From NCBI RefSeq assembly GCF_900103215.1, contig NZ_FNGV01000008.1, positions 186,001 to 250,000 on the forward strand: a stretch of 64,000 nucleotides of DNA, read 5' to 3'. Position 1 is the stretch's first letter, and each line of letters starts with the position of its first letter. The DNA is from Kriegella aquimaris. Lineage in GTDB: Bacteria > Bacteroidota > Bacteroidia > Flavobacteriales > Flavobacteriaceae. The translations under genes and the position numbers were made by a program. Below, one piece after another: positions 1,756-53,298 of this stretch. The notes below the pieces were generated by a model that saw nothing but the letters and a program-made list of their open reading frames with translations, made no database searches and was not told the origin of the DNA.

Positions 1756-1763
1756 GGTTCTCT

Positions 1764-3086: not shown

Positions 3087-4019
3087 TTATTGTCTTATGA
3101 AAGCAAGCGAAGTTTTTTTGTCTTTTTGAAGCTGTATTTTTAGGGCATCGATAGAATCGAACTTGTGTTCATCACGAATACGCTTCAAAATATCAACCTG
3201 TATAGTAGTCTCGTAGAGATTTTCATCAAAATTCAGATAATGGACTTCAATGCTCTTCTCGGCTCCATTTCCTGCCACTGTAGGATTGTAGCCTATGTTC
3301 ATCATTCCGTATACCACTTTATTCTTAATGGTGCTCTTACAAACGTATACGCCATTTTTAGGAATCAACTTGTATGATTCTTCAATGAAAACGTTGGCCG
3401 TAGGAAACCCAAGCTGCCTACCTAGACCCTTGCCCTTTTTTACAGTGCCCGTCAGCATATATTTATAGCCCAAATATTTATTGGCCGTAAGTATATCACC
3501 TGTTTCAAGTGCTTTCCGTATTTTGGTGGAGCTGACTGAAACATCATTGATTTCTTGCGCGGGTATTTCCTCTACTTCGAAATCCAATGCGTTGCCAAAA
3601 GCTCTTAAGTCGTTAATGTTGGCGGTTCTATTTCTGCCAAAACGATGGTCGTAGCCAATAATAATTTTCTTGGTCTTAAGGCTGTTTACAAGAATATCCC
3701 TCACAAACTCAGTTGCCGATAATCGCGAAAACTCTTTTGTGAACGGGTGTATGATCAACTGGTCGATTCCAAATTCCTTGAGTATATTGGTTTTTTCAGA
3801 AACGGTATTCAGAAGTTTTATATTGGTGTCTTTCTGAAGTACCATTCTTGGATGTGGAAAAAAAGTAAGCACAGTCGATTTAAGCTCCGTTTCGGCACAG
3901 CTTTTGATTAAACGATCCAAGATTTTACGATGCCCAATATGCACGCCGTCAAAAGTGCCAATGGTGATGGCCGTGGAATGCTTTTTGTCGTATTTGGAGA
4001 TGCTTTGGACTGTTACCAC
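3087..4019 (-). CDS. ribF: Bifunctional riboflavin kinase/FAD synthetase
   Basis: Converts riboflavin to FMN and FMN to FAD in the cytoplasm. Residues 1-185 form the adenylyltransferase domain with TIGTFDGVHIGHRKIL (the GxFDxxHxGH nucleotidyl-transfer motif) and the STKIRKALETGD stretch. Residues 185-310 form the flavokinase domain with KGKGLGRQLGFPTANV, the PTAN motif that binds ATP-Mg and flavin. Length of 310 residues is normal for RibF. It heads a tightly packed minus-strand group with the HTTM and MFS genes and is divergent from the metzincin gene, with only about 50 bp between the two start codons. Confidence 0.97.
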   Translation of the reverse strand: MVTVQSISKYDKKHSTAITIGTFDGVHIGHRKILDRLIKSCAETELKSTVLTFFPHPRMVLQKDTNIKLLNTVSEKTNILKEFGIDQLIIHPFTKEFSRLSATEFVRDILVNSLKTKKIIIGYDHRFGRNRTANINDLRAFGNALDFEVEEIPAQEINDVSVSSTKIRKALETGDILTANKYLGYKYMLTGTVKKGKGLGRQLGFPTANVFIEESYKLIPKNGVYVCKSTIKNKVVYGMMNIGYNPTVAGNGAEKSIEVHYLNFDENLYETTIQVDILKRIRDEHKFDSIDALKIQLQKDKKTSLAFIRQ

Positions 4020-4042
4020 GTACTAAAAATAATAAAAAGACT

Positions 4043-4050
4043 TATATTTG
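4043..4050 (+). promoter_or_regulatory. Candidate -7 promoter element of the metzincin gene
   Basis: TATATTTG matches TAnnTTTG exactly. It ends 22 bp before the ATG at 4073 but only 7 bp before the GTG at 4058, which argues that the ATG is the real start. No matching TTG at -33 was found. Confidence 0.35.
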
Positions 4051-4072
4051 ATTCTGAGTGAAAAACCCCTTG

Positions 4073-7000
4073 ATGGCTACAAAACTACGTCTAGTTTTTT
4101 CAATTACCATACTATTTCTTTCCTTTTACGGCACGGCACAGCGTAATTTTTGGAAACAGGAAGCTTTACAAAATGATGTAAAGGGAAAAATGTTGGAGCG
4201 TTTTGAACTTAAAAAAGGAAAAGCATTTTCTTTAGACGAGAAAGCTTTTAAGCGGGGGTTGGAAACTTTTCCAGCAGCTAAAAGCTCTTTTAAAACAGTT
4301 TATTTTCCGGATGAAAATGGAGAGCTCATACCCTTTCTGGTTTCGGAAGCCCAAGTACTAGCTCCTGAACTTGCCGCCAAATATCCATCTATAAAATCGT
4401 ATAAAGGGCGCAGTCTGAAGAATGCGAATGACGTTATACGATTCAGTGTTTCGCATAAGGGTATACAGAGCATGGTCGTACATGGTGATGGGCAAAGCAG
4501 TACTTTTTTGCAAAAAGTTGGTGAGAATGCATATATGGCCTATAATAGGGATGCCAATAGTACTGAAGATATTGACTTCATCTGTGACACAGGGTCTATA
4601 GCAGGAAAGCAGTTACAAACCACCACGCAAAAGTTGGTCAATGATAAGATTCTTAGAAAATTTAGATTGGCGGTATCTGCCTCAGCTGAATATACACAAT
4701 TCCACGGCGGAGAAGTCGTCGATGCCCTTGCTGCCATCAATGCCACTGTGACGAGAATCAATCAGGTTTTTGAGAGGGATTTGGCTGTTACACTTCAGCT
4801 TGTTGCAAATACCGATGAGGTGATTTTTACCGATGAAGAAAAAGACCCTTATGACGGTAACCTGAATTCTGAAGTTCAGAATACGCTCAGAAATATTATT
4901 GGAGAAGAGAATTATGATATAGGCCATTTGTTTCACGACGATGATCCCGGTGGCAATGCGGGTTTTGTAGGTTCTGTCTGTGTAGATGATAAAAAAGGTA
5001 GTGCCTATGCATCGAGCCCCAGTCCTGAGGGAGACCTATATGATCTTGATTTTGTTGCCCACGAAATGGGCCATCAACTTGGTGCCAACCATACCTGGTC
5101 TTTTGAATCTGAGGGCACACAGGTGCAGGCGGAGCCAGCGAGTGGTACTACGATTATGGGCTATGCCGGTATAACTGGGGTCAACAACGTCGCTTCGAAC
5201 GGCAGTGATTATTTTCATCATAACAGCATTGTACAGATTTCTAGCTATTTGGCAAGCATCGGATGTGCTGAAATAATGAATCTTGACAATAACCCACCTG
5301 CAATAATTCCTATTGGAAATTTTGTGATTCCTAGGTCCACGGCATTTATACTCGAAGGGAGTGCGTCAGACCCCGATTCGGGCGATGTATTGAGTTATAC
5401 ATGGGAACAAATCGATGATGGAGTCGTGACACAGGCCACTTTCGGACCAACAAATCCGAGTGGGGCGAACTTTCGGTCGCTGCCACCTTCATTATCCCCA
5501 AAAAGATACTTTCCGAAGTTGACGAGCATATTATCAGGCAATCTTACCCAAACCATGCCCCTTGTAAATTCTAACTGGGAAACTGTTTCAGATGTAGGAA
5601 GGGAAATGAACTTTGCCTTAACTGTTCGTGACAATGCTCTTGGAGGCGGACAGGTGGTATCCGACGTGGTCAACGTTGCCGTGGTAGGTGGTGCAGGTCC
5701 TTTTATCGTTACTTCCCAAGCTGAAAGTGAGACGTATATTGCAGGTGATGTACAGCATATAATTTGGGATGTAGCCGAAACCCATAAAGCGCCTGTTCTT
5801 GCACAAACTGTAGATATACTGCTTTCTACTGATGATGGGCTCACGTTTCCCATTGTCTTGGCGGAAGATGTGCCGAATGATGGTGACCATAAAATAATTG
5901 TCCCGAATAACCCTACTTCCAAGGCTCGTATTATGGTCAGGGCCCATGATAATATTTTTTTTGCCGTCAACACCGCTAATTTTTCGATAACAGCATCACA
6001 AATTCTCCTCGATTTCGACAAGTTGGAATATGAGGTATGCCAACCCGACGATTTGGTGGTGACATTTAATTATGAACCCGTCTTGGATTTTACTGAGGAG
6101 ACCACTTTTACCGTGGTTTCACCTCCGACCGGACTAGATATTACTTTTTTCCCCGAAACCGCTACGAGTAATAATACTTCAGTTGACCTGATTTTGAGCA
6201 ATACTGGAGCGGTTTCAGAAGATAACTACAATATTGAAGTTCTTGCAACTTCTTCAAGTGTGACGAAAAAAGTGGTTTTGGAGGTGAGCATCTATGATGC
6301 CGATTTTCCAGATGTAGCGTTGCTCTCACCGGCAAATGGTCTCGAAGATACTTCTACGGGAATGCCATTGGAATGGGAGAGTGACAGTTCATATACCTCC
6401 TATGAGGTAGAGATATCTACTGACACCTCATTCAATACGATTGTCGAATCTGCGACCGTATTTTCAAATACCTATAGACCATCGGGGTTGATAAATGCAA
6501 CCACATACTTTTGGAGGGTGAAGCCGATAAATGCTTGTGGAGATGGGGACTTCGGGCCGCCATTTGGTTTTACCACAGTTCAGTTTAGTTGTAAAAATAA
6601 AGAGAGTGATGGGTTACCAATCGAGATAACGCCAATTGGGAAACCAACGATAACTTCGAGTATTACCTTTTTAGAGGATTTGCCTTTGGCGGATATCAAT
6701 GTGAATCTTACCGTGGATCATACTTTTCTCTCTGATCTCGCGATAAGTTTGACCTCCCCAGCGGGAACTACCGTGGTACTTGTTTCCAGTAGTTGTGGAG
6801 ACCTCGAAAATATAAATGCCACTTTTGATGATGATGCAGACAGTTTTGAATGCGATGGCAAGCCAGCAATAAGCGGAACGGTTAAACCATTAGGTTCCTT
6901 AGATGCTTTTAAGGGCGAATCGATTTTAGGTAAATGGGTTTTAGAGGTTTCAGATAACGTTCAATCCGATGGCGGTGCGCTCAGGGCTTTCTCTTTGGAT

Positions 7001-7843
7001 GTTTGTGTGGAAGGTGAATTCAGGCCTGATGCCGATAAAGATGGCATTTATGACGATGGTGACGATGCATGTCTGGGAACCGCTGAGGGCCAAGAGGTCG
7101 ATGCCAACGGATGTGCGGTTTACAGGTTCCCTAGCACTAATTTTTCTATTTCCGTACAGAGCGAATCTTGTAGAAACAACAATGATGGGCAACTGAGTAT
7201 TGTTCCCCAAATCGACTTGGAATATTCGGTTACCGTCACGGGAAATGGGGTCAATATTACTGAAGACTTTTCACGCACTTACACACTGGAGAATTTGGCG
7301 GCAGGTACTTATATGGCATGTATTAATGGAACCGATGGGAGTTTGAAATATCTTGAACATTGTTTTGAAGTAGTTGTTACACAACCAGAACCTTTAGTGG
7401 TTACTTCAAAAACCAGCCAAGATGGAAAATACGTGCAATTGAATTTGCAAGGTGCAGCTATCTATACAATTGACTTGAATGGAGAATTGCTGCAGACCGA
7501 GGCAAGCGAACTATTTCTGCCCTTGCAAAATGGTTCCAACAGTCTTAAAGTATATGGTGAGTTACCATGTCAGGGGGTTTATGTGGAAAAGTTTATAACA
7601 TCCGACCAACCTTTTATTTATCCGAATCCATTTAGAGCTTCGACGAATATCTTCTTAGGTATGGTGGTCGAAAAAGTTGAGATAACTATCTATGGGGCCA
7701 GTGGTCAATTGGTTAAAAGTGGAAGTTATATAGTTGACAGCGCAGAAATGACACTTGATTTTGATGCCTTGCCTGCTGGGATGTATTTTGTAAACTTTAT
7801 TGGAGGAAAAGTGCAGGGAACACTAAAAGTTATAAAACAATGA
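4073..7843 (+). CDS. Secreted reprolysin-like zinc metallopeptidase with P-domain and T9SS type-A signal
   Basis: Large secreted protease. From the ATG at 4073 it is 1256 residues; an in-frame GTG at 4058 would add five. A signal peptide ends at FYGTAQ. The metzincin zinc motif HEMGHQLGANHTW lies near residue 330 and the Met-turn TTIMGYAG about 30 residues on. Then follow Ig/FN3-like segments, a proprotein-convertase P-domain (VNLTVDHTFLSDLAISLTSP and GKWVLEVSDN), a calcium-binding-like DADKDGIYDDGDD segment, and a C-terminal type IX sorting domain with FIYPNPF and LPAGMYFVN. It is therefore expected at the cell surface or outside. The next gene overlaps its stop by 4 bp, so they are co-translated. 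Confidence 0.93.
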   Translation: MATKLRLVFSITILFLSFYGTAQRNFWKQEALQNDVKGKMLERFELKKGKAFSLDEKAFKRGLETFPAAKSSFKTVYFPDENGELIPFLVSEAQVLAPELAAKYPSIKSYKGRSLKNANDVIRFSVSHKGIQSMVVHGDGQSSTFLQKVGENAYMAYNRDANSTEDIDFICDTGSIAGKQLQTTTQKLVNDKILRKFRLAVSASAEYTQFHGGEVVDALAAINATVTRINQVFERDLAVTLQLVANTDEVIFTDEEKDPYDGNLNSEVQNTLRNIIGEENYDIGHLFHDDDPGGNAGFVGSVCVDDKKGSAYASSPSPEGDLYDLDFVAHEMGHQLGANHTWSFESEGTQVQAEPASGTTIMGYAGITGVNNVASNGSDYFHHNSIVQISSYLASIGCAEIMNLDNNPPAIIPIGNFVIPRSTAFILEGSASDPDSGDVLSYTWEQIDDGVVTQATFGPTNPSGANFRSLPPSLSPKRYFPKLTSILSGNLTQTMPLVNSNWETVSDVGREMNFALTVRDNALGGGQVVSDVVNVAVVGGAGPFIVTSQAESETYIAGDVQHIIWDVAETHKAPVLAQTVDILLSTDDGLTFPIVLAEDVPNDGDHKIIVPNNPTSKARIMVRAHDNIFFAVNTANFSITASQILLDFDKLEYEVCQPDDLVVTFNYEPVLDFTEETTFTVVSPPTGLDITFFPETATSNNTSVDLILSNTGAVSEDNYNIEVLATSSSVTKKVVLEVSIYDADFPDVALLSPANGLEDTSTGMPLEWESDSSYTSYEVEISTDTSFNTIVESATVFSNTYRPSGLINATTYFWRVKPINACGDGDFGPPFGFTTVQFSCKNKESDGLPIEITPIGKPTITSSITFLEDLPLADINVNLTVDHTFLSDLAISLTSPAGTTVVLVSSSCGDLENINATFDDDADSFECDGKPAISGTVKPLGSLDAFKGESILGKWVLEVSDNVQSDGGALRAFSLDVCVEGEFRPDADKDGIYDDGDDACLGTAEGQEVDANGCAVYRFPSTNFSISVQSESCRNNNDGQLSIVPQIDLEYSVTVTGNGVNITEDFSRTYTLENLAAGTYMACINGTDGSLKYLEHCFEVVVTQPEPLVVTSKTSQDGKYVQLNLQGAAIYTIDLNGELLQTEASELFLPLQNGSNSLKVYGELPCQGVYVEKFITSDQPFIYPNPFRASTNIFLGMVVEKVEITIYGASGQLVKSGSYIVDSAEMTLDFDALPAGMYFVNFIGGKVQGTLKVIKQ

Positions 7844-8517
7844 GAGTATTTTCGGTAATTATAGTCGGTATGCTGTTGTTTGGTTGTAAAAAGGATGCTC
7901 CGAAGTCACCGGAGGCAGTGTTATTGTCCTTACCAGCAAAAAACACAGAGTGTGCCCCGGTTCAAACTTCTAGTGAATCGGCCAATGTTGTTCGATTTAC
8001 ATGGTTGGCGGCCGATCATGCTGAAACTTATGAACTTCGGGTGACTAATTTAAACACGGGTACAACACAGACCAAGAGTACCCAGTTACTTTCCGAGACA
8101 CTGCCATTACAGAAGGGTACACCTTTCTCTTGGGTAGTTATTTCAAAAAACACAAAAGTGCAAAAAACGAGTACGAGTGAAAAATGGATGTTTTACAATC
8201 CTGGTGCACAAACTTCATATGCCCCTTTTCCTGCTGAGATAATATCGCCAAAATTAAGCGAATCTGTTTTTAAGGACATTAATAATGAGATTACCCTTGA
8301 ATGGTCGGGGTTTGATCTAGATAACGATATCGCCGATTTTGATTTATATTTTTCTACCGAAACGCCCCCAGCCACGCTAATTGGTACATTCGCCTCAGGA
8401 AGTTCAGCTAAAAAGGTGAGTGTCTCGTCAAAGACGGTATATTATTGGAAGGTGGTTACTAAAGATGAAAATGGTAATACCTCCGATTCAGGGATTTTTA
8501 GTTTTAAAGTCTTTTAA
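7840..8517 (+). CDS. Lipoprotein with fibronectin type III-like repeats
   Basis: 225 residues. The signal peptide ends in a lipobox, VGMLLFGC, with the acylated Cys near residue 16. Two beta-sandwich repeats follow (VVRFTWLAADHAETYELRV around residues 50-70 and ITLEWSGFDLDNDIADFDLYF around 150-170), resembling the FN3-like modules inside the protease encoded just upstream. The ATG overlaps the protease stop codon (ATGA), so translation is probably coupled. It may anchor or assist the protease at the outer membrane; this is inferred from context only. Confidence 0.75.
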   Translation: MRVFSVIIVGMLLFGCKKDAPKSPEAVLLSLPAKNTECAPVQTSSESANVVRFTWLAADHAETYELRVTNLNTGTTQTKSTQLLSETLPLQKGTPFSWVVISKNTKVQKTSTSEKWMFYNPGAQTSYAPFPAEIISPKLSESVFKDINNEITLEWSGFDLDNDIADFDLYFSTETPPATLIGTFASGSSAKKVSVSSKTVYYWKVVTKDENGNTSDSGIFSFKVF

Positions 8518-18292: not shown

Positions 18293-19321
18293 TTACTCGA
18301 CGGAAAGCGGAATCCCTTTTTCGTTGGATTCATAAATTTTTTCAAGAACTTTTAAATTTTGAAGATAGCTTGAGACTTCGGTTTCAAATGGATTTCCCGA
18401 AATAAGGTTCTTAATAAAATGGGATTGGGTATTAAAAACACAGTCCCCGGAGAAGTTTTGGTTCTGAAAAGTGTATTTATGCAGTCTCTCCGGTTCTCCC
18501 AAGGGATGAACTGTAATTTTTCCATCATCATAGAGGCGCAAACTTCCTTCATTACCTTCAATTAATACTGCTCCGAAAGTTAGCCTGGGGTCTTCGGTTG
18601 TATTTTCGTTGTATCGATTGGCATCTAAAAATCCTAAAGCTTGACTGGCGAAGTCAAAATGCACCCAAGCAAAATCTTCACCTTTTATGTTGGCGTTCAA
18701 GGTTCTTAGTTTGGCGTAAACTGTAATAATGTCGCCCATTAAATATTGAAATACATCTATGAAATGAACGCCGGTCTCATAGATGAGCAATCGTTCCATT
18801 TCTCTGAAATACGGTTGCCGGTTCATGTAAGCATCGGTCTGCCAACCATCGCCCATGCGCATTCGTAAGTTGATCGTATGTAATTTTTGCCCTATCGTAT
18901 TTCTATCTAAGAGTTTTTTTAATTCGCGATGCCACGGCTGGAATCTAAAATTTTCGTGTACCATCATTCTCACTGCAGATGTCTCGACAAGTTTTGCAAT
19001 TTCCGTTGACTCGGCCAGTGTGGGAGCCAGTGGTTTTTGACAGATGATATGGATGTTATGCTTTATGGCAAGCTGGCAAAGTTCTAAATGTGTCTCGGGC
19101 GGTGTAATGATATCAACGAAATCGGGTCGTTCGTTCAGAAACATTTTTTCTACGTCGCTATAGGCATTTTTGAATCCGTATTTCTCTATAACCGTTTGAG
19201 TGTGTTCTGTGGTCGAGTCGCAAACACCTACAATGTCAACATTTTCTAAGCGTTGCCATGCCTCAAAATGAAATTGGCTAAAATAACCTGCTCCAATGCA
19301 AACTCCTTTTAGTTTCACCAT
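18293..19321 (-). CDS. Gfo/Idh/MocA family oxidoreductase
   Basis: 342 residues. The N-terminal Rossmann fold shows GVCIGAGYFSQFHFEAW with the GxGxxx dinucleotide motif, and IICQKPLAPTLAES, where the usual EKP motif reads QKP. The catalytic-domain stretch ETGVHFIDVFQYLMG contains the conserved GxHxxD pattern. Family members oxidise or reduce sugar and inositol hydroxyls with NAD(P). It is the last gene of the five-gene sugar-acid operon, 10 bp after the transporter, so it probably interconverts the imported compound. Confidence 0.88.
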   Translation of the reverse strand: MVKLKGVCIGAGYFSQFHFEAWQRLENVDIVGVCDSTTEHTQTVIEKYGFKNAYSDVEKMFLNERPDFVDIITPPETHLELCQLAIKHNIHIICQKPLAPTLAESTEIAKLVETSAVRMMVHENFRFQPWHRELKKLLDRNTIGQKLHTINLRMRMGDGWQTDAYMNRQPYFREMERLLIYETGVHFIDVFQYLMGDIITVYAKLRTLNANIKGEDFAWVHFDFASQALGFLDANRYNENTTEDPRLTFGAVLIEGNEGSLRLYDDGKITVHPLGEPERLHKYTFQNQNFSGDCVFNTQSHFIKNLISGNPFETEVSSYLQNLKVLEKIYESNEKGIPLSVE

Positions 19322-19331
19322 GCGGTTGATT

Positions 19332-20600
19332 TTAATAGGTCGAAAAATGTTGTTGTGGTTTCATATGGTACCATAATGCAATTGCAATAATATTCAATAT
19401 CGCGCCAACTACGAAGAATGGGGTTGTAGATTCCGTCCAGGCCTGTAGGTAAGGAAAAGCCAATGCGGTCAAAAACGCTCCGATGTTTCCTGCCATATTC
19501 ATGGTGCCTGATACGGCTCCCGAATGTTCTTTGCCGATATCGACACAGAAGGCCCATGATGGGGGCAATGTCATGTCGGCTCCGAAAATGGCAATGCTTA
19601 AAAATGCAATAGCTCCCACGGCACTGTCCATATAAATGCTTCCGATTAACCCTAAAGCTGCTAGAAAGAATCCGATAGACGCTGGAAGAATTCGAGATTT
19701 GTCCCAATTCCCTTTTTTGTAGATGCGATCACTGAGTGCCCCAGATGTCCAATTTCCGAAAGCTCCAAAAACTAAAGGTATTGCGGTGTAAAAACCAGCT
19801 TCTAATGTGTTTAGGCCATACTCACTTTTCACGTGCGGAAAGAGCCAGGTAAGTGCAAAGAAAAAGGTAAAGTTGCTACAAAAATATTGCCCCATGGCCA
19901 GCCATATATTCTTTGATTTTAATAAATGTCCCAAGCTTATTTTTTTGATTTCCGCTTGGGTGTTTTGTTGCTGTCTTGTCGAGAGAATAAATTCTTTTTC
20001 TTGTTTTGAAATGCCTGGATGGTCTTCCGGTTTGTCCCTAAAAAGCAGAAACCAAACAACTGCCCAAAGTACACCGATACCACCGAGAATTACAAATGAA
20101 ATACGCCATCCGAAATCATCAATCATCCAGGCGACCACGGGAAGGGCGAATGCAGCACCTAGGCGGGATCCGGAAAAATTGATACCGGTAACGATGCCTC
20201 TCTCCTGTAAAGGAATCCAACTGTAAATGGCACGTGACATGCCCGGAAATGCACCTGCTTCTCCTGCGCCGAAAAGAAATCGAACGACTAGAAGTGAACT
20301 GAAATTCCATGCCGCTCCCGTTAAAGCGGTAAATCCTGACCAAATGGCCACTATCGCCGAGAGTACCTTGCGAGGGCCTAAGGAATCCGACAACATGCCG
20401 GCAGGGGTTTGAAAAAGTGCGTAACCCAATGAAAAGGCGGCCAAAACCCATCCCATTTGTTTATCGCTGAGGTCTAAAGCACCTGAAATAGGTTCTTTGG
20501 CGACCGAAATACAAACACGATCTACATAGAGTAACAAAGCCAAAAGAAAGGTGCCCATTACCATAAAATAGCGCTTGGGAAAGTGTTTTTGTGTTTTCAT
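19332..20600 (-). CDS. MFS transporter of the anion:cation symporter (sugar-acid) type
   Basis: 422 residues, about 12 transmembrane helices. The N-terminal part LLYVDRVCISVAKEPISGAL, the loop MLSDSLGPRKVLS and GAGEAGAFPGMSRAIYSWIP are typical of the ACS family that imports galactonate, glucarate, tartrate and similar acids. It starts 7 bp after the DUF1537 kinase gene and is followed 10 bp later by the Gfo/Idh gene, so it is the likely uptake system for the acid degraded by this operon. Confidence 0.9.
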   Translation of the reverse strand: MKTQKHFPKRYFMVMGTFLLALLLYVDRVCISVAKEPISGALDLSDKQMGWVLAAFSLGYALFQTPAGMLSDSLGPRKVLSAIVAIWSGFTALTGAAWNFSSLLVVRFLFGAGEAGAFPGMSRAIYSWIPLQERGIVTGINFSGSRLGAAFALPVVAWMIDDFGWRISFVILGGIGVLWAVVWFLLFRDKPEDHPGISKQEKEFILSTRQQQNTQAEIKKISLGHLLKSKNIWLAMGQYFCSNFTFFFALTWLFPHVKSEYGLNTLEAGFYTAIPLVFGAFGNWTSGALSDRIYKKGNWDKSRILPASIGFFLAALGLIGSIYMDSAVGAIAFLSIAIFGADMTLPPSWAFCVDIGKEHSGAVSGTMNMAGNIGAFLTALAFPYLQAWTESTTPFFVVGAILNIIAIALWYHMKPQQHFSTY

Positions 20601-20607
20601 GTTGGTT

Positions 20608-21993
20608 TCATTTCAAAAGTGTGATCAATTCTAGGAGTGCGTTATTATCACCAACATTTCCTGGAAAGACGATATAGGGCAACCCCGGAAATTTTGCTTC
20701 TTTACCTAATTTCCAAACGGGTACGCCTTTGAGTACTTGGCCAAGAATGGTTGCACGCCGAACCCCTAGTCCTTTGGTAGCTACATCGCTAGAAGTGATG
20801 CCTCCTTTCGCTACAAGGTATTTGGGTCTGTTCTCAATTTGTTTTATGATAGCAATAAGTGCGTCGGAAACGCGATTGACAATTTCAAGACTTTCGTTTT
20901 TGGTGCTACCTTTAACTACGGTTCTGCTGGTAAATAGCACTACATCTTCTCCCGTGGCTATATGTCGGTCTATTTGGCTTACCAACGATGCCAGTTCTTT
21001 GCTAAAAAGAATAGGATTTAGAACATTGGACACTTCCAATTCTAGGAAAACAGCATTACAATTTTTTTTAACATGTTCCAACTGGGCAGTCGTTTTTGGA
21101 ACGTAGGAGCCGACTATGACAAGCGCTCCGTTTTGAGTAGGCTTTCCTAAGATTTGATTTTTGCTCAAACAAGAGCGTAAGGCGATTCCCGATATCGCAT
21201 TTATGAAAGACGCAGCAGTTCTAAAAATGAACGAACCCGTATTTTGGAGAATGACCAGCGCTATGACCTGTAAATCATTATAAGATGTGGCATTGACCAC
21301 AATATGGGTAGTATTAGGTTGTTCTAGTATGGTCTTTATTGCTTCTGGTGCTTGCTGTCTCAGCATTTGAACCGAGACACTGGCGATGTGATCAGGCGTT
21401 ACCTTCCCTTCCGATTTTTCAATAATCCATTCCCTTAAATTGGAAGACTCGTATCCGAAGGTGTTGTCTTTGGCAAAAGGTGTTTCCGCAGCGGGTATAA
21501 ATTTATCACCCTCTTTTACATAATGTATATCATTGTGGGTGTAGCGACCGCCTTCAAAAAAAGCGGGAATCAGTAGGTGTTTCGCATTTCGTAAATGTAA
21601 TCCTGTTGCAAGGGCATTGACCTCGTTGGGGTAATGACCCCTTAAAGTAGAGTCACTTCGGCTAATTACAATAAGCTTTTTTTGATGTTTGGCCGCTAGT
21701 TTATGCAGCCGTGTGCCTATTAGTTGGCCTAATGTATCAGCAGCCTCAGCGTGAAGACTTCTGGAATTTGTCAAGATAAAAAATACAGGACTTGAAAGGA
21801 GTTCTTTTTCTAATATTTCTTCCGTCCATTCTGTAATTACCGGAACATCGTAAACCGTTTGTGTGCCGGTAGGGTCATCATCTAAAATGACTATCGATTT
21901 TTGATTTTTTGCTAGTTCTGCACGTATTTCGGCTTCACGGCCAAGTAGTCGATTCCCTTCTTCAATTGATTGTAAAAGAGTTGTGCGCAGCAT
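20608..21993 (-). CDS. DUF1537 four-carbon acid sugar kinase
   Basis: 461 residues. The N-terminal domain shows SIVILDDDPTGTQTVYDVPV and FILTNSRSLHAEAA, the C-terminal ATP-binding domain YLVAKGGITSSDVATKGLG and PGNVGDNNAL, all hallmarks of the DUF1537 family (OtnK, DtnK and relatives). Characterised members phosphorylate four-carbon aldonic acids such as threonate or erythronate derivatives. Spacing to both neighbours is under 10 bp. The true substrate is not readable from sequence. Confidence 0.9.
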   Translation of the reverse strand: MLRTTLLQSIEEGNRLLGREAEIRAELAKNQKSIVILDDDPTGTQTVYDVPVITEWTEEILEKELLSSPVFFILTNSRSLHAEAADTLGQLIGTRLHKLAAKHQKKLIVISRSDSTLRGHYPNEVNALATGLHLRNAKHLLIPAFFEGGRYTHNDIHYVKEGDKFIPAAETPFAKDNTFGYESSNLREWIIEKSEGKVTPDHIASVSVQMLRQQAPEAIKTILEQPNTTHIVVNATSYNDLQVIALVILQNTGSFIFRTAASFINAISGIALRSCLSKNQILGKPTQNGALVIVGSYVPKTTAQLEHVKKNCNAVFLELEVSNVLNPILFSKELASLVSQIDRHIATGEDVVLFTSRTVVKGSTKNESLEIVNRVSDALIAIIKQIENRPKYLVAKGGITSSDVATKGLGVRRATILGQVLKGVPVWKLGKEAKFPGLPYIVFPGNVGDNNALLELITLLK

Positions 21994-21998
21994 AAATT

Positions 21999-22640
21999 TT
22001 ATTGTTTTTCCAATGCGATGACCCGTGCCGGTGCGCCATCGCCATTTTCCACCTTTAAAGGCATTGCTATAAGGGTGATTTTACTTTTTGAAAGCGCATC
22101 GAGATTGGTAAGGCCTTCCACGATTATAACATCATTTTTCATTAAAATGGTGTGGATTTGAGTAACCTCTTCCAAATTATTGACATCGGCAACAGAAGGC
22201 GGTTCAACTCCTAGAATGTTTACACCTTTTAGTCCTAGCCAATGGGCCAATTCGGGACTTATTCTCGGGAGGGCATTTCGATATTCATCGGTACCCAATT
22301 TTTTGCTCCACCCGGTATGGAGTATAATGCTTTGTCCTTTTTCAATCGATGCTGCTATGCTGTGTAAATGGCCAACTGTGATAGACTCTTTGGGGCTAAT
22401 ATCGGTCAAATCGACCACCCACGCCTCTGATATGAACCGATGTACAGGAGTTTGGTCAATGGTCTTGTCGTTTACCTCAAAATGAAGTGGTGCATCCATA
22501 TGAGTACCGCTATGTGAATATAGATGCAAGGTAGTAGCGTTCCAACCATCTTTGGCCAAAGTTTTGGCTGGTTCAATAAATACGCCGCTGCTATTCCCAT
22601 TAATGGGCAAGGTAAGATCAATGACTTTTTGGTCTATCAT
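21999..22640 (-). CDS. Cyclase family protein (kynurenine formamidase-like metal hydrolase)
   Basis: 213 residues. Carries the family metal motif HSGTHMDAPLHF near residue 43, a second His/Asp region around TDISP, and HTGWSKKLG followed by EPPSVAD. Family members are Mn/Zn hydrolases acting on amides or lactone-like compounds (kynurenine formamidase, isatin hydrolase). In this operon it could open a lactone of a sugar acid before phosphorylation; this role is inferred from context. Gap to the dehydrogenase gene upstream is 5 bp and to the kinase downstream 5 bp. Confidence 0.87.
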   Translation of the reverse strand: MIDQKVIDLTLPINGNSSGVFIEPAKTLAKDGWNATTLHLYSHSGTHMDAPLHFEVNDKTIDQTPVHRFISEAWVVDLTDISPKESITVGHLHSIAASIEKGQSIILHTGWSKKLGTDEYRNALPRISPELAHWLGLKGVNILGVEPPSVADVNNLEEVTQIHTILMKNDVIIVEGLTNLDALSKSKITLIAMPLKVENGDGAPARVIALEKQ

Positions 22641-22645
22641 CGCAA

Positions 22646-23725
22646 TTAGACGGTTGATAGTTTTGTTGTCTTAATAAATTCTACCACGCTTTGGGCGACT
22701 TCTGATGTAGAAGCGGTACCACGAAGATCTTTCGTCAAGTTGCCTTTTGCCGTTGTCGCTTCGATACCGTCCATAATGTTTTTAGCTGCTTCCGTTTCGC
22801 CCAAATGTTCTAACATAATGGCTGCAGACCAAATTTGTCCAATAGGATTTGCTATATTTTGTCCAGCAATATCAGGAGCCGATCCGTGAATGGGCTCGAA
22901 CATTGATGGGAAATCTTTTTCAGGGTTGATGTTTCCACTGCCGCCCAAACCTAAACTGCCCATGATGGCTCCACCAAGATCCGACAAAATATCGCCAAAA
23001 AGATTTGTTGTTAAGATCACATCAAAAATTTCCGGACGCAATACAAAACTTGCCGAGGCATTATCGATATACATTTTAGTATATTCCACATCTGGGTACT
23101 CTTTTGCCACCTCTGCAATCACTCTGTCCCAGTAGGCCAAGCTATTAATAAGTGTATTGGATTTAGTTACATTGGTAACTTTATTATTTCGTTTACGGGC
23201 CAGTTTAAAAGAATAATGTGCGATGCGCTCAATACCAAACCTGGTAAAGATACTGGTATCCATGGCCATACCTCCCGGCTTGTCTCCATGCATTATTTTT
23301 CCGCTCTGTACGAACTCCCCTTCATTGTTTTCACGAACAACCACAAAGTCTATGTCTTTTTCAGTTTTATAGCGAAGCGGACTCTCTACACCTGGAAATA
23401 ATTTTACAGGTCTGTAATTAACATATTGCTCAAAAGAGGTCCTTACCCGAAAGGTATAATCTTTTGCGGGTAAAGTATCGTCTACCTCTGGCAAACCTAC
23501 TGCTCCAAAAAAAATGGCATCAAATTTTTTTAGAATGTCCAAGGCATCGTCAGACATGAACTTCCCATGTTTCCTAAAATACCCAGCTCCAAAAGGGAAT
23601 TCTTCTTTATCAAGGTTAAATCCATATTTTTCCGCCACTGCATCTAGCACGGAAACTCCTGCAGGAACAATTTCGGTTCCTATTCCATCACCATTGACTA
23701 CAGCGATTTTGTACGTTTTTCCCAT
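22646..23725 (-). CDS. Isocitrate/isopropylmalate dehydrogenase family, tartrate/D-malate dehydrogenase-like
   Basis: 359 residues, soluble NAD- and Mn-dependent oxidative decarboxylase. Motifs are VNGDGIGTEIVPAG at the N-terminus, FVVVRENNEGEF, the catalytic Tyr/Lys region, DNASASFVLRPEIFDVI with NLFGDILSDLGG, and EPIHGSAPDIAGQ followed by NPIGQIWSAA, the last being closer to tartrate and D-malate dehydrogenases than to LeuB. It heads the five-gene operon with the kinase, so it may act on a phosphorylated four-carbon acid. No leu genes are nearby, which argues against leucine synthesis. Confidence 0.87.
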   Translation of the reverse strand: MGKTYKIAVVNGDGIGTEIVPAGVSVLDAVAEKYGFNLDKEEFPFGAGYFRKHGKFMSDDALDILKKFDAIFFGAVGLPEVDDTLPAKDYTFRVRTSFEQYVNYRPVKLFPGVESPLRYKTEKDIDFVVVRENNEGEFVQSGKIMHGDKPGGMAMDTSIFTRFGIERIAHYSFKLARKRNNKVTNVTKSNTLINSLAYWDRVIAEVAKEYPDVEYTKMYIDNASASFVLRPEIFDVILTTNLFGDILSDLGGAIMGSLGLGGSGNINPEKDFPSMFEPIHGSAPDIAGQNIANPIGQIWSAAIMLEHLGETEAAKNIMDGIEATTAKGNLTKDLRGTASTSEVAQSVVEFIKTTKLSTV

Positions 23726-23767: not shown

Positions 23768-23885
23768 TTTTGCACAAGTCTATTTTTTCGTTGATGATAA
23801 GCTTGGTTATGGAGCAAATATATATAAATAATCGGACTGAAGTATAATTTTACTGCTTATTTCGGAAGTGCCTATTGACAAAAAA

Positions 23886-23893
23886 TTGCGCAA
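23886..23893. promoter_or_regulatory. Candidate LacI-family operator 2
   Basis: Perfect palindrome TTGCGCAA inside AAAATTGCGCAAAATTTT. About 160 bp upstream of the sugar-acid operon. Confidence 0.4.
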
Positions 23894-24098
23894 AATTTTG
23901 TTTGTTGGCTTTTTGAGGCTGTAGGTTGTAATCTTTTTTTTAGCGTAGGTTTATGGTGTTTGTAATGAAGTTGAGTTGATTGCCTCTTGCTATAAGATTT
24001 TACATAGAGGGGCTCAGATATTCTCAATTATTTTTCTAATCCTTTGAACGGGCATTTTGGTTTGTGCACAGTGATTGTTTCAGTAAATGGCGCTGTAG

Positions 24099-24326: not shown

Positions 24327-25433
24327 ATGAAAAAACACATTCTATTATCGCTACTTATCGTATTTGGCTGTTCAATTTCATTTGGAAATGAACCTCCACC
24401 CGAAAAAAAAGCAGGAAAAACCGTAGTAACCATAGTGAACGATAAATTTTTGATCAATGGGGAGCTCACCTATAAGGGGCGCACTTGGCAAGGACATAAA
24501 ATCGAGGGTCTATTGATGAATTCTCGAATGGTTCAAGGGGTTTTTGATGACTTGAATCCGGAAACTGTGGACCGTTGGAAGTACCCTGATACCAAAACAT
24601 GGGATGCCGATCGTAATACGGCTGAATTCATAGCTGCTATGGGCGAATGGTATGCCAAAGGGTTATTGGCCTTTAATATTAATTTTCAAGGGGGTAGTCC
24701 CGAAGGATACTCAAGAGTACAACCTTGGGAAAACAATGCCTACGAATCCGATGGTAGTTTGCGTCCAGCTTTTGCAAAAAGAATGGCACGCGTCATTGAA
24801 AAAGCAGATGAACTAGGCATGATAGTGAACTTAAGCCTCTTCTATTTTGGGCAAGATGAACGGCTAAAAGATGAACAAGCAGTTATTGCGGCAGTAGACA
24901 ATGCCGTTGCATGGATAAAGAAGAAGGGCTATACCAACATAATTTTGGAAGTAGCCAATGAAAGTAACAATAAGGCATATCAACACGCTATAATTGGTCA
25001 AGATAGAATTCACGAACTCATTCTAAGAGTAAAGAAAAACGCTCCCAATCTTTTAGTGTCCACAAGCTTTAACGGAAATACCCTTCCACCGGATAAAGTA
25101 GTAGAAGTATCCGATTATGTATTGATACACGGTAATGGGGTTGGTGATCCGGCCCGAATTACGGAGTTGGTCGCACAAGTACGCGCACTGCCATCATACC
25201 GTCCCATGCCGATAGTTTTTAATGAAGATGATCATTTTGATTTTGATAAACCATCTAACAATTTTGTCGAGGCAGTAAAAGCGTATGCCTCATGGGGTTA
25301 TTTTGATTTTAGGATGAAAGACGAAGGCTTTGATGATGGTTATCAGTCCGTGCCCATTAATTGGGGAATAAGTTCTCCTCGAAAAAAAGCTTTTTTCAAC
25401 AAGCTTGAAGAAATTACCGGAGGTCCACACTAG
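24327..25433 (+). CDS. Glycoside hydrolase-like lipoprotein (clan GH-A TIM barrel)
   Basis: 368 residues with a signal peptide and probable lipobox (LLIVFGC). The body is a TIM barrel with features of clan GH-A: LEVANESNN, whose Glu212 fits the acid/base, and MPIVFNEDDH, whose Glu300 fits the nucleophile. Trp-rich segments (VDRWKYPDTKTWDADRN, AYASWGYFDFRM) could line a sugar-binding site. No exact family can be named by eye. It is followed 44 bp later by the DUF5060 lipoprotein on the same strand and sits opposite the sugar-acid operon, so both may process one glycan. Confidence 0.72.
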   Translation: MKKHILLSLLIVFGCSISFGNEPPPEKKAGKTVVTIVNDKFLINGELTYKGRTWQGHKIEGLLMNSRMVQGVFDDLNPETVDRWKYPDTKTWDADRNTAEFIAAMGEWYAKGLLAFNINFQGGSPEGYSRVQPWENNAYESDGSLRPAFAKRMARVIEKADELGMIVNLSLFYFGQDERLKDEQAVIAAVDNAVAWIKKKGYTNIILEVANESNNKAYQHAIIGQDRIHELILRVKKNAPNLLVSTSFNGNTLPPDKVVEVSDYVLIHGNGVGDPARITELVAQVRALPSYRPMPIVFNEDDHFDFDKPSNNFVEAVKAYASWGYFDFRMKDEGFDDGYQSVPINWGISSPRKKAFFNKLEEITGGPH

Positions 25434-25477: not shown

Positions 25478-27352
25478 ATGAAATACTATTTTCTTAAAAC
25501 ATTTTCCTTTCCGAGTACATTGCTTTTTATAGTAGCCCTGTTTTGTTCCTGTACCTCCGAACCCGATTATGCGGTTCAGGGTGAACTAAAAAAATGGCAT
25601 AAAATAGAATTGGTATTCAATGGTCCTTCCGCAAGTGAATTGGATAGTATAAATCCTTTTTTAGATTATCGACTAGATGTTACATTTACCAATGATGATC
25701 AAACTTTTGTAGTTCCCGGGTTTTATGCTGCGGATGGTAATGCCGCAGAAACGGAAAGTGAGAAAGGCAATAAGTGGATGGTACGATTTGCACCTAATAC
25801 TACTGGTGTTTGGAATTTTGAAGTATCTTTTAAAAAGGCCAGTAATATTGCCGTTGCAGATGGAGCTAACGACGCGCCCAGTGCCAATTTTATGGATGGC
25901 GTAACCGGTAATTTTACTGTTGGGGAATCTGATAAAACGGGAATTGACAATAGATCGAAGGGTAAATTGGAATATGTTAATGACCATTATCTTAAGTTCA
26001 AGGATTCGGGTAACTATTTCATAAAGGTTGGCGTTGATGCTCCTGAAAATATTTTGGCTTTTGACGATTTCGACGCTACCACCAATGCCCTTGGCTTACT
26101 AAAAACTTGGGAGCCCCATCGAAAAGATTTTGATGAAGATGCCAGTGATCTGTTATGGCAAGGCGAAAAAGGAAAAAATTTGTTTGGAGCCATCAATTAT
26201 CTGGCTTCCGAAGGGCTGAATGTATTTTCCTTTCTGACGTTCAACGTAGATGGTGATGATCGTAACGTTTTTCCGTATCGGCTAAAGGTATCCGAAGAGG
26301 CCTATACTACCTATGCGAATGATAAAAAGAATAAGGAGGCTTGGCAGACCATGTTTCATAAAACACGTTTAGATGTTTCTAAATTGGAACAATGGGAGCG
26401 TATTTTTGATTATGGCGATAGAAAGGGAATGTTTCTACACTTTAAGACCCATGAGACCGAGACCGATCATTTAATGGATAATGGAGTTTTTGGGGTCGAA
26501 GGGAAATTGTACTACCGCGAACTCATTGCGCGTTTCGGTCATCATTTGGCCATGAATTGGAATATTGGCGAAGAAAACAATCAGCCAATACAAGAAGTGA
26601 TAAAAGTGACGGATTATGTTGCAAAACTTGACCCCTATAATTCGCATAGAGTGATTCACACCTTCCCTGATCAAGACTACCGATATGCTGAGTTGATAGG
26701 TGATCAATCAGCATTGACTGGAGCTTCATTGCAATTAAGCGAGGAAGATTTTAAGGATGTGCACCCTAGGGTTTTGAAATGGAGGGAAAAATCGGATGCG
26801 ACAGGTAAAAAATGGGCTATTGCGGTTGACGAACCTGGCAAAGCGAAGGTAGCACTTTTGCCAGATGAAGAAGACAGCGAGCACGATGATGCTCGCGGAA
26901 ATGCGCTTTGGGGAACGCTTATAGCCGGAGGCTATGGTGTAGAATGGTATTTTGGGTATGCGAGTCCCCATTCAGATTTGACTTGTCAAGATTATCGGAG
27001 TAGAGATCTTTTCTGGAATCAGAATAATCATGCCAAGGTGTTTTTTGAAAAGTATCTTCCGTTCTGGAAAATGAGCCCTTCCGACGATTTGTTGGGTGAT
27101 AAGGTATCCTATTGTTTTTCACAGCTTGGTGAGGTATATGCGGTTTATCTTCATCCCGGTACCGAAACGACTACATTGAACATGGGTGATTCGGGAAATT
27201 CGTTTTCGGTCAAATGGTATGATCCAAGAAATGGGGGAGACCTTATGGAAGGTTCCATTAAAGATGTGAAAGCCGAAGGACGTGTCGATTTGGGCTATCC
27301 TCCTAAAGAAAGAGAAAAAGATTGGGTGGTATTAGTAAGACTTCAAAAATAG
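25478..27352 (+). CDS. DUF5060 glycosidase-like lipoprotein
   Basis: 624 residues. Signal peptide with lipobox-like FCSC near residue 25. Residues 35-150 form the DUF5060 beta-sandwich (KKWHKIELVFNGP, NPFLDYRLDVTFTN, RFAPNTTGVWNFEVSF). Residues 165-520 form a TIM barrel (FIKVGVDAPENILAFDDFDAT, ALNVFSFLTFNVDGDD-like stretch, HHLAMNWNIGEENNQP, KWAIAVDEPGK). The end (VYLHPGTETTTLNMG, VKWYDPRNGGDLMEG) is a collagen-binding-like C-terminal domain found behind such barrels. GEENN and DEPG could hold the catalytic acids. Secreted polysaccharide-degrading enzyme, substrate unknown; paired with the preceding gene. Confidence 0.78.
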   Translation: MKYYFLKTFSFPSTLLFIVALFCSCTSEPDYAVQGELKKWHKIELVFNGPSASELDSINPFLDYRLDVTFTNDDQTFVVPGFYAADGNAAETESEKGNKWMVRFAPNTTGVWNFEVSFKKASNIAVADGANDAPSANFMDGVTGNFTVGESDKTGIDNRSKGKLEYVNDHYLKFKDSGNYFIKVGVDAPENILAFDDFDATTNALGLLKTWEPHRKDFDEDASDLLWQGEKGKNLFGAINYLASEGLNVFSFLTFNVDGDDRNVFPYRLKVSEEAYTTYANDKKNKEAWQTMFHKTRLDVSKLEQWERIFDYGDRKGMFLHFKTHETETDHLMDNGVFGVEGKLYYRELIARFGHHLAMNWNIGEENNQPIQEVIKVTDYVAKLDPYNSHRVIHTFPDQDYRYAELIGDQSALTGASLQLSEEDFKDVHPRVLKWREKSDATGKKWAIAVDEPGKAKVALLPDEEDSEHDDARGNALWGTLIAGGYGVEWYFGYASPHSDLTCQDYRSRDLFWNQNNHAKVFFEKYLPFWKMSPSDDLLGDKVSYCFSQLGEVYAVYLHPGTETTTLNMGDSGNSFSVKWYDPRNGGDLMEGSIKDVKAEGRVDLGYPPKEREKDWVVLVRLQK

Positions 27353-27373: not shown

Positions 27374-27401
27374 CAAGAACGTGTTTTTAAGACTTGTTCT
27401 T
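27374..27401. terminator. Hairpin between the DUF5060 and lacI-type genes
   Basis: CAAGAAC / GTTCTTG 7-bp inverted repeat enclosing a T-rich loop, between the two converging genes and overlapping the last codons of the LacI gene. It could end both transcripts, but the T-tract is weak. Confidence 0.35.
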
Positions 27402-28409
27402 GTTGGTCGATTTTCGGATTATCAAATTCGATTTTAAGACTTTTCTTGATATTTCTTTGTCATAATTTGCAATCCGATCAATAACAAGTTTTGCAGATTC
27501 GATGCCCATTTCATAACTCGGCTGGTCTATACTGGTTAATGTAGGTTCTAAAAGTTCGTCGACAGGTTCGTTATTGATGCCAATGATGGCAAGGTCTTCG
27601 GGCATTTTGAGTCCTCGCTCCTTCGCTGCAAGCATAACACCAATGGCAACTTGGTCACTAAAGGCCAAAATGCCATCGGGATGTTCTGGGGAATACAGTA
27701 ATTTTCTTGCAGTACTAAGATTACCTTCTCTCGTGAAATCGGAGTATTCGATGAATTTTTCTTCAACAGGAATATTAGCATCTACCAATGCTTTTTTGTA
27801 ACCTAAAAGACGCGTGGTACTAATTTGTAGAATTTTTGGGCCGCCAATATAGGCAATGCGCTTGCAACCAACGGCAATCAAATGCTGAGTGGCATCATAG
27901 GCAGCTTTAAAATTATCAATTATCACTTTGTCAGATTCGACCTCATCACATAAACGATTGAAAAAAACTAAGGGTACCTTTCTTTTCTTCACTTCCAAAA
28001 AATGGTCGAATTCTTTAGTTTCACCAGCTAGGGAAACAATCAGCCCCGACACACCAATATCCAACAATTCTTTGACCAAAATCTTTTCTCGGTCGTATGA
28101 TTCATTTGATTGACAAATGATGATCTGCATTTGGTGCATTTCCAAGACTTTCTCGATACCCGAGATGGCCATCGCATACAAATGGTATTTAATCCCCGGT
28201 ACTATGACGCCTACGGCATTGATTTTTTTTGGCGCAAAAGGATTGATATGTTTTGTTTGGAAATAATTGTATTTCTGTGCCAAGTCGAGCACCCTTTCCC
28301 GTGTTCGGGCGCTAATGCGGGGGTTGCCTTGTAAAGCTCTTGAAACGGTAGAAATAGAAACGTCTAGTTCAGCCGCGATGTCCTTTAAAGTGGTTTGTTT
28401 TTTATCCAA
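27387..28409 (-). CDS. LacI family transcriptional regulator
   Basis: 340 residues. The N-terminal helix-turn-helix is TTLKDIAAELDVSISTVSRALQ with the hinge helix around residues 50-60, followed by a periplasmic-binding-protein-like effector domain (VGVIVPGIKYHLYAMAISGIE, GCKRIAYIGGPK, PDGILAFSDQVAIGVM, AIIGINNEPVDELLEPTLTS). These proteins bind palindromic operators and release them when a sugar or its derivative binds. It converges on the DUF5060 gene and is the only local regulator for the 18.3-27.4 kb region, where TTGCGCAA sites occur. Confidence 0.95.
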   Translation of the reverse strand: MDKKQTTLKDIAAELDVSISTVSRALQGNPRISARTRERVLDLAQKYNYFQTKHINPFAPKKINAVGVIVPGIKYHLYAMAISGIEKVLEMHQMQIIICQSNESYDREKILVKELLDIGVSGLIVSLAGETKEFDHFLEVKKRKVPLVFFNRLCDEVESDKVIIDNFKAAYDATQHLIAVGCKRIAYIGGPKILQISTTRLLGYKKALVDANIPVEEKFIEYSDFTREGNLSTARKLLYSPEHPDGILAFSDQVAIGVMLAAKERGLKMPEDLAIIGINNEPVDELLEPTLTSIDQPSYEMGIESAKLVIDRIANYDKEISRKVLKSNLIIRKSTNKNKS

Positions 28410-34197: not shown

Positions 34198-35412
34198 ATG
34201 AACAAGACAATATTACATTTAGATTTGGACACTTTTTTTGTTTCCGTAGAGCGGCTTATTAATACAGCATTGAAAAATAAGCCTTTACTTGTAGGGGGGC
34301 TTAGTGATCGCGGTGTTGTTGCGGCCTGCAGTTATGAAACGCGGGGGTTTGGGGTACATTCTGGCATGCCTATGAAAATGGCTAAAGAGCTCTGCCCAGA
34401 AGCCATAGCAATCAAAGGCAATGCAGGTACGTATAGCAAACACTCTGATGATGTGACCGAGATTATCAAAGAACATGTACCGTTATTCGAGAAATCGAGT
34501 ATCGATGAATTTTATGCAGATCTTACCGGAATGGATCGCTTTTTCGGTTCTTATAAATATGCATCGGAACTGCGACAACGGATTATTAAGGAAACAGGAT
34601 TACCAATTTCTTTTGGTTTATCGGTCAATAAAGTAGTTTCCAAAGTAGCTACCAATGAGGCCAAACCCAACAATCAATTGAAAATCGACTACGGATTTGA
34701 AAAACCTTTTCTGGCTCCGCTATCCATAAAAAAAATACCTATGGTAGGCGATAAGACCTATCAAACTTTACGTAACCTCGGTCTGCGACAGATACGTACC
34801 ATACAAGAAATGCCGGTAGATGTAATGCAGCGTGTATTGGGCAAGAACGGTACCGTTATTTGGAAACGGGCCAATGGGGTCGATAATACCCCTGTAATTC
34901 CCTTTTGCGAGCGAAAATCGATTTCTACCGAGCGCACGTTCGATAAAGATACCATTGATGTGGTGATGTTAAACGGTATCCTCATTGCTATGACAGAAAA
35001 TTTGGCCTATCAATTACGGCGCGGCGAAAAACTGACGGCCTGTATCACCGTGAAAATTAGGTATTCCGATTTTAACACCTATTCCAAACAGTTACGAATC
35101 CCCTATACCAGTGCCGACCATATTTTGATTCCTAAGATTTTAGAACTGTTTAAGACGCTTTATAACAGACGTTTGTTGGTCCGTTTGGTGGGTATTCGGT
35201 TCAGTCATTTGGTATCGGGCAATTACCAGATCAATTTATTCGACGATACCGAAGAAATATTGAACCTGTACCATGCTATGGATTATATCAGAAAACGTTA
35301 TGGCGATAAAAGTGTTATACGTGCTTCGGCCATGGGAGCAAGAACCATTGGTAGAATGCACAACCCGTTCAATGGTCAGCCACCTATTGTCTTGGCACAT
35401 CGAAAACAGTAA
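34198..35412 (+). CDS. dinB: Y-family DNA polymerase (DinB/Pol IV type)
   Basis: 404 residues. Translesion polymerase with the palm metal motifs LDLDTFFVSVE (residues 7-17) and KSSIDEFYADLT near residue 101, the steric-gate region VVAACSYETRGFGVHSGMPM, the helix-hairpin-helix segment (IPMVGDKTYQTLRNLGL) and a little-finger domain with a beta-clamp-like motif NLFDD near residue 350. The usual dinB gene is shorter and stands alone; this one is paired with a second DnaE 60 bp downstream. The upstream inverted repeats suggest damage-inducible control. Confidence 0.92.
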   Translation: MNKTILHLDLDTFFVSVERLINTALKNKPLLVGGLSDRGVVAACSYETRGFGVHSGMPMKMAKELCPEAIAIKGNAGTYSKHSDDVTEIIKEHVPLFEKSSIDEFYADLTGMDRFFGSYKYASELRQRIIKETGLPISFGLSVNKVVSKVATNEAKPNNQLKIDYGFEKPFLAPLSIKKIPMVGDKTYQTLRNLGLRQIRTIQEMPVDVMQRVLGKNGTVIWKRANGVDNTPVIPFCERKSISTERTFDKDTIDVVMLNGILIAMTENLAYQLRRGEKLTACITVKIRYSDFNTYSKQLRIPYTSADHILIPKILELFKTLYNRRLLVRLVGIRFSHLVSGNYQINLFDDTEEILNLYHAMDYIRKRYGDKSVIRASAMGARTIGRMHNPFNGQPPIVLAHRKQ

Positions 35413-35471
35413 AATAAGTTGTCAGTTGGTAATTCATGATATTCGACTGACAAACATCAACGAACAATCAA

Positions 35472-44513: not shown

Positions 44514-44531
44514 TATTTAAAAAACTAAGGA

Positions 44532-46046: not shown

Positions 46047-46180
46047 CCTTTGATTATACTTATAAATTAGTATTTTACTGAGCATGATTGTTTCTAAACC
46101 TTTTAATGGTATATGTCATATCAAATTACCGGGTTTCGGGCAAGAAAGATTGATGATGATAGAAAAATATTAGTAAACAT

Positions 46181-49018: not shown

Positions 49019-49020
49019 AG

Positions 49021-50505: not shown

Positions 50506-50529
50506 TGCTATTCGAAATTAAAATGTTTA

Positions 50530-53295: not shown

Positions 53296-53298
53296 CTC

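Follow-up and report, generated by a model that had tools for sequence, protein, structure and literature searches.

Described DUF1537 pathways and the locus in Kriegella aquimaris

The D-threonate pathway, reportedly described by Zhang and colleagues in 2016, is said to combine the DUF1537 kinase DtnK with PdxA2. In the three-step L-threonate route, oxidation precedes phosphorylation: LtnD oxidises the acid, and 2-OtnK and 2-OtnC follow (Guo et al., 2024, as summarised in part of PMC12540250). The steps of the D-apiose pathway (ApsD, ApnL, ApnO, OiaK, OiaC/OiaX) are set out in part of the text of PMC11747546. Here we describe an operon in a 64,000-nucleotide stretch of the Kriegella aquimaris genome (contig NZ_FNGV01000008.1, positions 186,001 to 250,000; the window), which encodes an Iso_dh family dehydrogenase (DH), a Cyclase-family hydrolase, a DUF1537 kinase, an MFS transporter and a Gfo/Idh/MocA oxidoreductase (GFO). 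We read it as an operon for catabolism of a short sugar or sugar acid in which DH would be a non-decarboxylating oxidiser acting ahead of the kinase, in the place of LtnD rather than that of PdxA2. Judging from sequence and gene context, the probability of this reading is about 0.45.

The operon shares a DUF1537 kinase with the D-threonate pathway, and DtnK is the top NCBIfam model for this kinase, though far below threshold (86 bits against a cut-off of 450). Unlike that pathway, it has no PdxA2, and its dehydrogenase belongs to the tartrate dehydrogenase clade and lacks the catalytic tyrosine. Its likeness to the L-threonate pathway lies in the relatives of the kinase: 36–40% identical kinases adjoin class II fructose-bisphosphate aldolase genes (loci L041 and L042), and a 33% identical one (L043) shares its locus with both a class II aldolase and an LtnD-type dehydrogenase. 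The operon differs in having an Iso_dh family dehydrogenase, additional Gfo/Idh and cyclase genes and no dedicated 2-OtnC. With the D-apiose pathway it has in common a DUF1537 kinase, a nearby DUF5060 protein, as in locus L094, and possibly a Gfo/Idh enzyme of the 5uhw type; however, it includes neither a RuBisCO-like protein nor an ABC transporter, and its kinase is not OiaK.

Replacement of the catalytic tyrosine in DH

DH passes the NCBIfam tartrate dehydrogenase model TIGR02089 only marginally (470.6 bits, cut-off 470.4). Its top solved relative is the tartrate dehydrogenase 3flk (347.6 bits), and it is 45–51% identical to plasmid tartrate dehydrogenases. An Iso_dh alignment of 63 rows was built, comprising 29 rows from the operon (24 distinct loci) and 34 others, namely plasmid tartrate dehydrogenases, an enzyme from Pantoea, and the LeuB and isocitrate dehydrogenase proteins of relatives; among these, the row for L075 could not be aligned. 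The tyrosine of the RExxEGxY motif is replaced by phenylalanine in all 29 operon rows (24/24 distinct loci), and tyrosine occupies this position in 33/33 alignable non-operon rows. In this superfamily the tyrosine donates the proton in the half reaction that releases CO2. Since it is replaced in DH, the enzyme would not be expected to decarboxylate. The malate-binding arginines, the catalytic lysine and the metal-binding aspartates, shared with tartrate dehydrogenases, are retained (R95, R105, R131, K188, D221, D245, and D249). The specificity stretch ahead of the first arginine reads YTF in nearly all operon DHs and FTN in L045; in tartrate dehydrogenases it is, e.g., SLI, LLI or LRL. The plasmid tartrate dehydrogenases of L077, L083 and L080 (8538-9632) carry a cysteine at the usual position of the first malate-binding arginine.

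In the phylogenetic tree, the Bacteroidota Phe clade (support 100/100) is nested within the Tyr-bearing tartrate dehydrogenase clade, and the enzymes of L093, L098, L099, and L103 form a separate alphaproteobacterial Phe clade (90/96). As the two clades are separate, the Tyr-to-Phe change took place at least twice. If DH acts as proposed, marine Bacteroidota enzymes annotated as tartrate dehydrogenase would differ from it in reaction and substrate and could be told apart by one residue, and the family would offer a natural test of the role of the catalytic tyrosine in the superfamily.

The kinase and its usual partners

The kinase has both domains of DUF1537 acid-sugar kinases (Pfam SBD_N, 166.8 bits, and NBD_C, 129.3 bits). 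As with DtnK, its scores fall under the NCBIfam cut-offs for OtnK (37.9 against 350 bits) and OiaK (27.7 against 700 bits). A single-sequence search of PDB gave no match, and a profile search gave weak matches to 4xfm and 4xfr alone.

The closest plasmid kinases (40–42% identity; Niallia, Ligilactobacillus, and Priestia) are members of dehydrogenase-kinase pairs. Pfam assigns the paired dehydrogenase of Niallia to the 6PGDH/GarR/LtnD type, the one in Priestia exceeds the GarR cut-off and that of Ligilactobacillus is annotated as garR; a GntP-type symporter is annotated next to the pair in the latter two genera. At L038-L041 the neighbour of the kinase (40–42% identity) is either an NAD(P)-dependent oxidoreductase or a dehydrogenase of the GarR/LtnD family, and the examined plasmid kinases at 33–42% identity have beta-hydroxyacid dehydrogenases or NAD(P)-dependent oxidoreductases as neighbours. 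More distant kinases in Deinococcus, Rhodococcus and Arthrobacter are accompanied by class II fructose-bisphosphate aldolases. PdxA was never located beside this type of kinase in the loci examined; in Rhodococcus (L042) it sits with a different DUF1537 kinase that has no significant alignment to the one in the operon.

Parallel Iso_dh loci on plasmids

Seven further plasmid Iso_dh enzymes were inspected. Phenylalanine replaces the tyrosine in L093, L098, L099, L102, and L103, and L100 and L101 keep the tyrosine. The Sulfitobacter locus L093 resembles the operon: its Phe-type Iso_dh adjoins a GFO homolog (41% identity) and is accompanied by a DUF1537 kinase, which passes the OtnK cut-off, and by a metallo-beta-lactamase-family hydrolase, a putative lactonase. 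It differs in that the Iso_dh comes from the other clade, the hydrolase is not a cyclase, transport is of the TRAP type and an OtnC-type aldolase gene is present. In Marinovum (L098), a Phe-type Iso_dh is likewise paired with a GFO homolog (38%) and a metallo-beta-lactamase-family hydrolase, and in Rhizobium gallicum (L099) it is accompanied by OtnK and by a gene for an OtnC-type decarboxylase. Genes for a 3-oxo-tetronate kinase and a decarboxylase are thus found beside two of the four members of the alphaproteobacterial Phe clade (L093 and L099).

We speculate, with less assurance than for the operon itself, that the Tyr-to-Phe change may have made plain acid-sugar oxidases out of beta-decarboxylating dehydrogenases on two or more occasions, mostly beside genes for Gfo/Idh enzymes, lactonase-type hydrolases or DUF1537 kinases. 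Such enzymes would open a new way into DUF1537 pathways, around LtnD, OtnI and PdxA2, and could account for DUF1537 kinases lacking both PdxA2 and LtnD. A separate operon on a Pantoea plasmid (L084:779-5694) codes for a Tyr-type Iso_dh, a 3-oxo-tetronate kinase, an aldolase, an Asp/Glu racemase and an amidohydrolase, and is possibly another uncharacterised acid-sugar pathway.

Conservation among Bacteroidota

All five genes stand in this order at 22 of 25 related loci, so the arrangement is far from chance. Two of the three incomplete loci (L011 and L023) are cut at contig ends, and L022 is without a GFO match. A beta-lactamase-family gene is inserted in the operons of L022 and L024, DH is broken in L031, and the kinase of L046 is divided over two frames. 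Close to the operon, 16/25 related loci have a homolog of the LacI-family regulator, and 11/25 have a DUF5060 protein.

The kinase is present in 8 of 149 genomes, the host included. The 15 named loci that carry it include those of four Zobellia species, Maribacter, Croceitalea, Ulvibacterium and Flammeovirgaceae metagenome-assembled genomes. One draw of 395 genomes from the phylum contained five with the kinase, and these five are also the ones with a DH match at E<=1e-170. The following DH-like matches (1e-99 and 1e-96) come from two kinase-less genomes, G186 and G225; these genes keep the tyrosine and have no further operon gene within the 11 kb fetched. This co-occurrence makes the Iso_dh enzyme a constant partner of the kinase and agrees with the suggestion of the first-pass annotation that the locus encodes a variant of the DUF1537 pathways that lacks PdxA2.

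Overall, the operon appears to encode a conserved, so far uncharacterised variant of DUF1537 acid-sugar catabolism. A literature search returned no title or abstract opening describing it, an earlier mention in primary DUF1537 or apiose papers being possible, and Zobellia transcriptomics papers do not mention its genes under the terms tried. If the proposed function is correct, it adds a sugar-acid route in algae-associated bacteria.

Proposed order of steps and the loss of CO2

In the order of steps that we favour, GFO would oxidise a sugar to a lactone, the cyclase-family hydrolase would open the lactone to an acid, and DH would oxidise one hydroxyl of this acid with NAD+ and without decarboxylation. 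The kinase, going by its family, would then phosphorylate the resulting oxo-acid, and CO2 would be lost after phosphorylation, yielding dihydroxyacetone phosphate or a similar sugar phosphate.

The missing enzymes were searched for in 11 operon genomes. The host genome (6.06 Mb, 99.99% complete) has one DUF1537 protein and one PdxA; a single PdxA is likewise present in all 11 operon genomes, which bears out the lack of pdxA2 noted earlier, and also in 10/10 kinase-less genomes. F_bP_aldolase is represented by one copy per operon genome, taken to be the glycolytic one, and no L-threonate dehydrogenase (NF043037) scored over the cut-off in any of the 11. No known terminal enzyme of a DUF1537 pathway is common to the operon genomes, unless the housekeeping PdxA or aldolase doubles in this role. 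The reported absence of a local aldolase or isomerase also holds for annotated genes at about 8.5–56 kb of the window, a span that excludes 589-8517 and everything beyond 56 kb.

Several observations weigh against DH being an oxidiser ahead of the kinase. No operon gene and no obvious gene elsewhere in the genome supplies the final decarboxylation; RuBisCO-like proteins (PF00016) were found in 0/11 operon genomes, and 3/11 have no Aldolase_II protein. Tyr-to-Phe mutants of isocitrate and isopropylmalate dehydrogenases are impaired and yet retain some decarboxylation. The enzymes of L098, L099, and L103 carry a tyrosine one residue on (FY), which may represent a shift rather than a loss. An OtnK query of the fetched stretches at L098 and L103 gave no kinase match, L102 has a Phe-type Iso_dh with no DUF1537 gene listed nearby, and a Tyr-type Iso_dh is found near OtnK and OtnC-type genes in L084 and, more loosely, in L083.

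The first-pass annotation had proposed the reverse order, with the kinase acting first on a four-carbon acid and DH then oxidatively decarboxylating the phosphate in place of PdxA2. With no second PdxA, no RuBisCO-like protein and Aldolase_II incompletely represented, some enzyme is needed for CO2 release. DH comes from a decarboxylating family and co-occurs with the kinase, and the absence of a common terminal enzyme is the strongest remaining point for DH releasing CO2. However, operon DHs have phenylalanine in place of the catalytic tyrosine throughout and retain the malate-binding arginines, and the partners of the kinase's relatives are other dehydrogenases, of the kind that acts before the kinase. 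Elsewhere, Iso_dh enzymes sit with OtnK plus a decarboxylase-type aldolase gene, whether of the Phe type (L093, L099) or the Tyr type (L084, looser in L083). These facts weaken the case for DH as a PdxA2 substitute, and we regard the reverse order as unlikely.

GFO, cyclase and the candidate substrate

Among solved structures, GFO is closest to 5uhw, an oxidoreductase with NAD+ and Mg from Agrobacterium radiobacter, which scores 214 bits against the GFO profile and is the sole PDB sequence at E<=1e-30 (VIA Z 41.6, next 36.4). GFO homologs of Rhizobium (L094) and Shinella (L095) occur in loci whose annotation includes OiaX and a DUF1537 kinase; GFO is 31–32% identical to these, against 41% for the Sulfitobacter homolog. 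Presumably, the unannotated genes of L094 and L095 correspond to ApsD, ApnL and ApnO. GFO homologs in L091 and L092 are found in loci with thiamine pyrophosphate-binding proteins, dehydrogenases and sugar-phosphate isomerases/epimerases, and no DUF1537 kinase is listed there. We dropped apionate oxidoisomerase as a function of 5uhw. Since its relatives in L094 and L095 have as their neighbour a distinct protein with a 6PGDH-C domain, which weakly matches ketol-acid reductoisomerase, an enzyme of the 5uhw type is more probably a sugar dehydrogenase.

A lactone-opening role of the cyclase gains indirect support from the presence of a metallo-beta-lactamase-family gene in L093 and L098 and of an amidohydrolase in L084. 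The single plasmid region opened for cyclase homologs had no sugar-acid context.

Candidate substrates are a tetronate or a branched, apiose-like acid. The tetronate is suggested by OtnK and OtnC in L093 and L099. A branched pentose such as apiose is a candidate because of the resemblance of GFO to 5uhw, of OiaX and DUF1537 kinases in L094 and L095 and of the DUF5060 protein in L094. The operon could even be a D-apiose or related branched-sugar pathway as such, in which GFO would be the sugar dehydrogenase and the cyclase the lactonase, DH would oxidise apionate (possibly as an oxidoisomerase) and the kinase would be the equivalent of 3-oxo-isoapionate kinase. The recurrence of DUF5060 proteins near 11 operon loci is in line with this, but the identity of GFO to the L094 and L095 homologs is low, the kinase is far from the OiaK cut-off, RuBisCO-like OiaC/OiaX is absent from all 11 genomes, and the DUF5060 match in L094 is significant over a short N-domain alone; we find such an assignment improbable. 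That DH is an ordinary tartrate or D-malate dehydrogenase in an operon for tartrate-type acids is more doubtful still: the 0.2-bit pass of TIGR02089 and the identity to plasmid enzymes favour it, but DH differs from TtuC/TDH in the Tyr-to-Phe change and in the specificity stretch, and tartrate operons hold glycerate kinase and pyruvate kinase rather than a DUF1537 kinase.

In L044 (4756-7773), two sulfatase genes lie immediately upstream of the operon, which hints at a sulfated glycan as the source.

Operon architecture and neighbouring genes

The five genes predicted at first pass to form an operon are confirmed as minus-strand open reading frames of the matching Pfam families (Table 1), with gaps of 5, 5, 7, and 10 bp from DH to GFO.

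Table 1. Features of the operon and its surroundings, in window positions.
Feature	Position	Strand	Size and basis
Dehydrogenase (DH), Iso_dh family, tartrate-dehydrogenase lineage, Phe138 at the catalytic Tyr position	22646..23725	-	359 aa; Pfam, NCBIfam, alignment, tree
Cyclase-family (PF04199) metal hydrolase, HSGTHMDAPLH motif, putative lactonase	21999..22640	-	213 aa; Pfam
DUF1537 acid-sugar kinase, DDDPTGTQTV subfamily	20608..21993	-	461 aa; Pfam SBD_N and NBD_C
MFS transporter, top NCBIfam model TIGR00893 (D-galactonate transporter subfamily), under cut-off	19332..20600	-	422 aa; Pfam MFS_1
Gfo/Idh/MocA oxidoreductase (GFO)	18293..19321	-	342 aa; Pfam GFO_IDH_MocA
DUF5060 and Collagen_bind_2 protein, likely glycoside hydrolase	25478..27352	+	Pfam
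LacI-family regulator	27387..28409	-	Annotation; homologs near related operons
TTGCGCAA-type palindrome, candidate LacI operator upstream of DH	23884..23895	+	Motif scan

Palindromes resembling TTGCGCAA recur upstream of DH in many related loci. With 3 in the window and 2.2 expected, they do not exceed chance there, and a scan of the whole genome gave 28 sites against 10 for the reversed control. Two of the 28 are intergenic and located upstream of a gene, namely DH and a glucose-6-phosphate dehydrogenase gene. As these are the only such sites, no missing enzyme turned up by this approach.

A structure prediction of the DUF5060 protein, aimed at a GH140-like fold, had a mean predicted local distance difference test score of 54.6, too low to tell. 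In L014, L015, L018, L019, L020, and L026, the DUF5060 protein has a long N-terminal extension; in L026 this extension has a weak GH115_C-like match, no stretch of which is significant alone. Between the operon and the DUF5060 gene, a gene for a 368-aa protein (24327-25433) matches no Pfam or NCBIfam model.

Farther along the window, genes for an IMS-family (Y-family) polymerase and, next to it, for a polymerase of the DNA polymerase III alpha type (34198-38525) resemble an ImuB/DnaE2 mutasome pair. At 41109-54756, a TonB receptor/SusD pair precedes PSCyt1/PSCyt2/PSD1 (DUF1549/DUF1553) and DUF1501 genes; this cassette is planctomycete-like, although the genome belongs to Bacteroidota.

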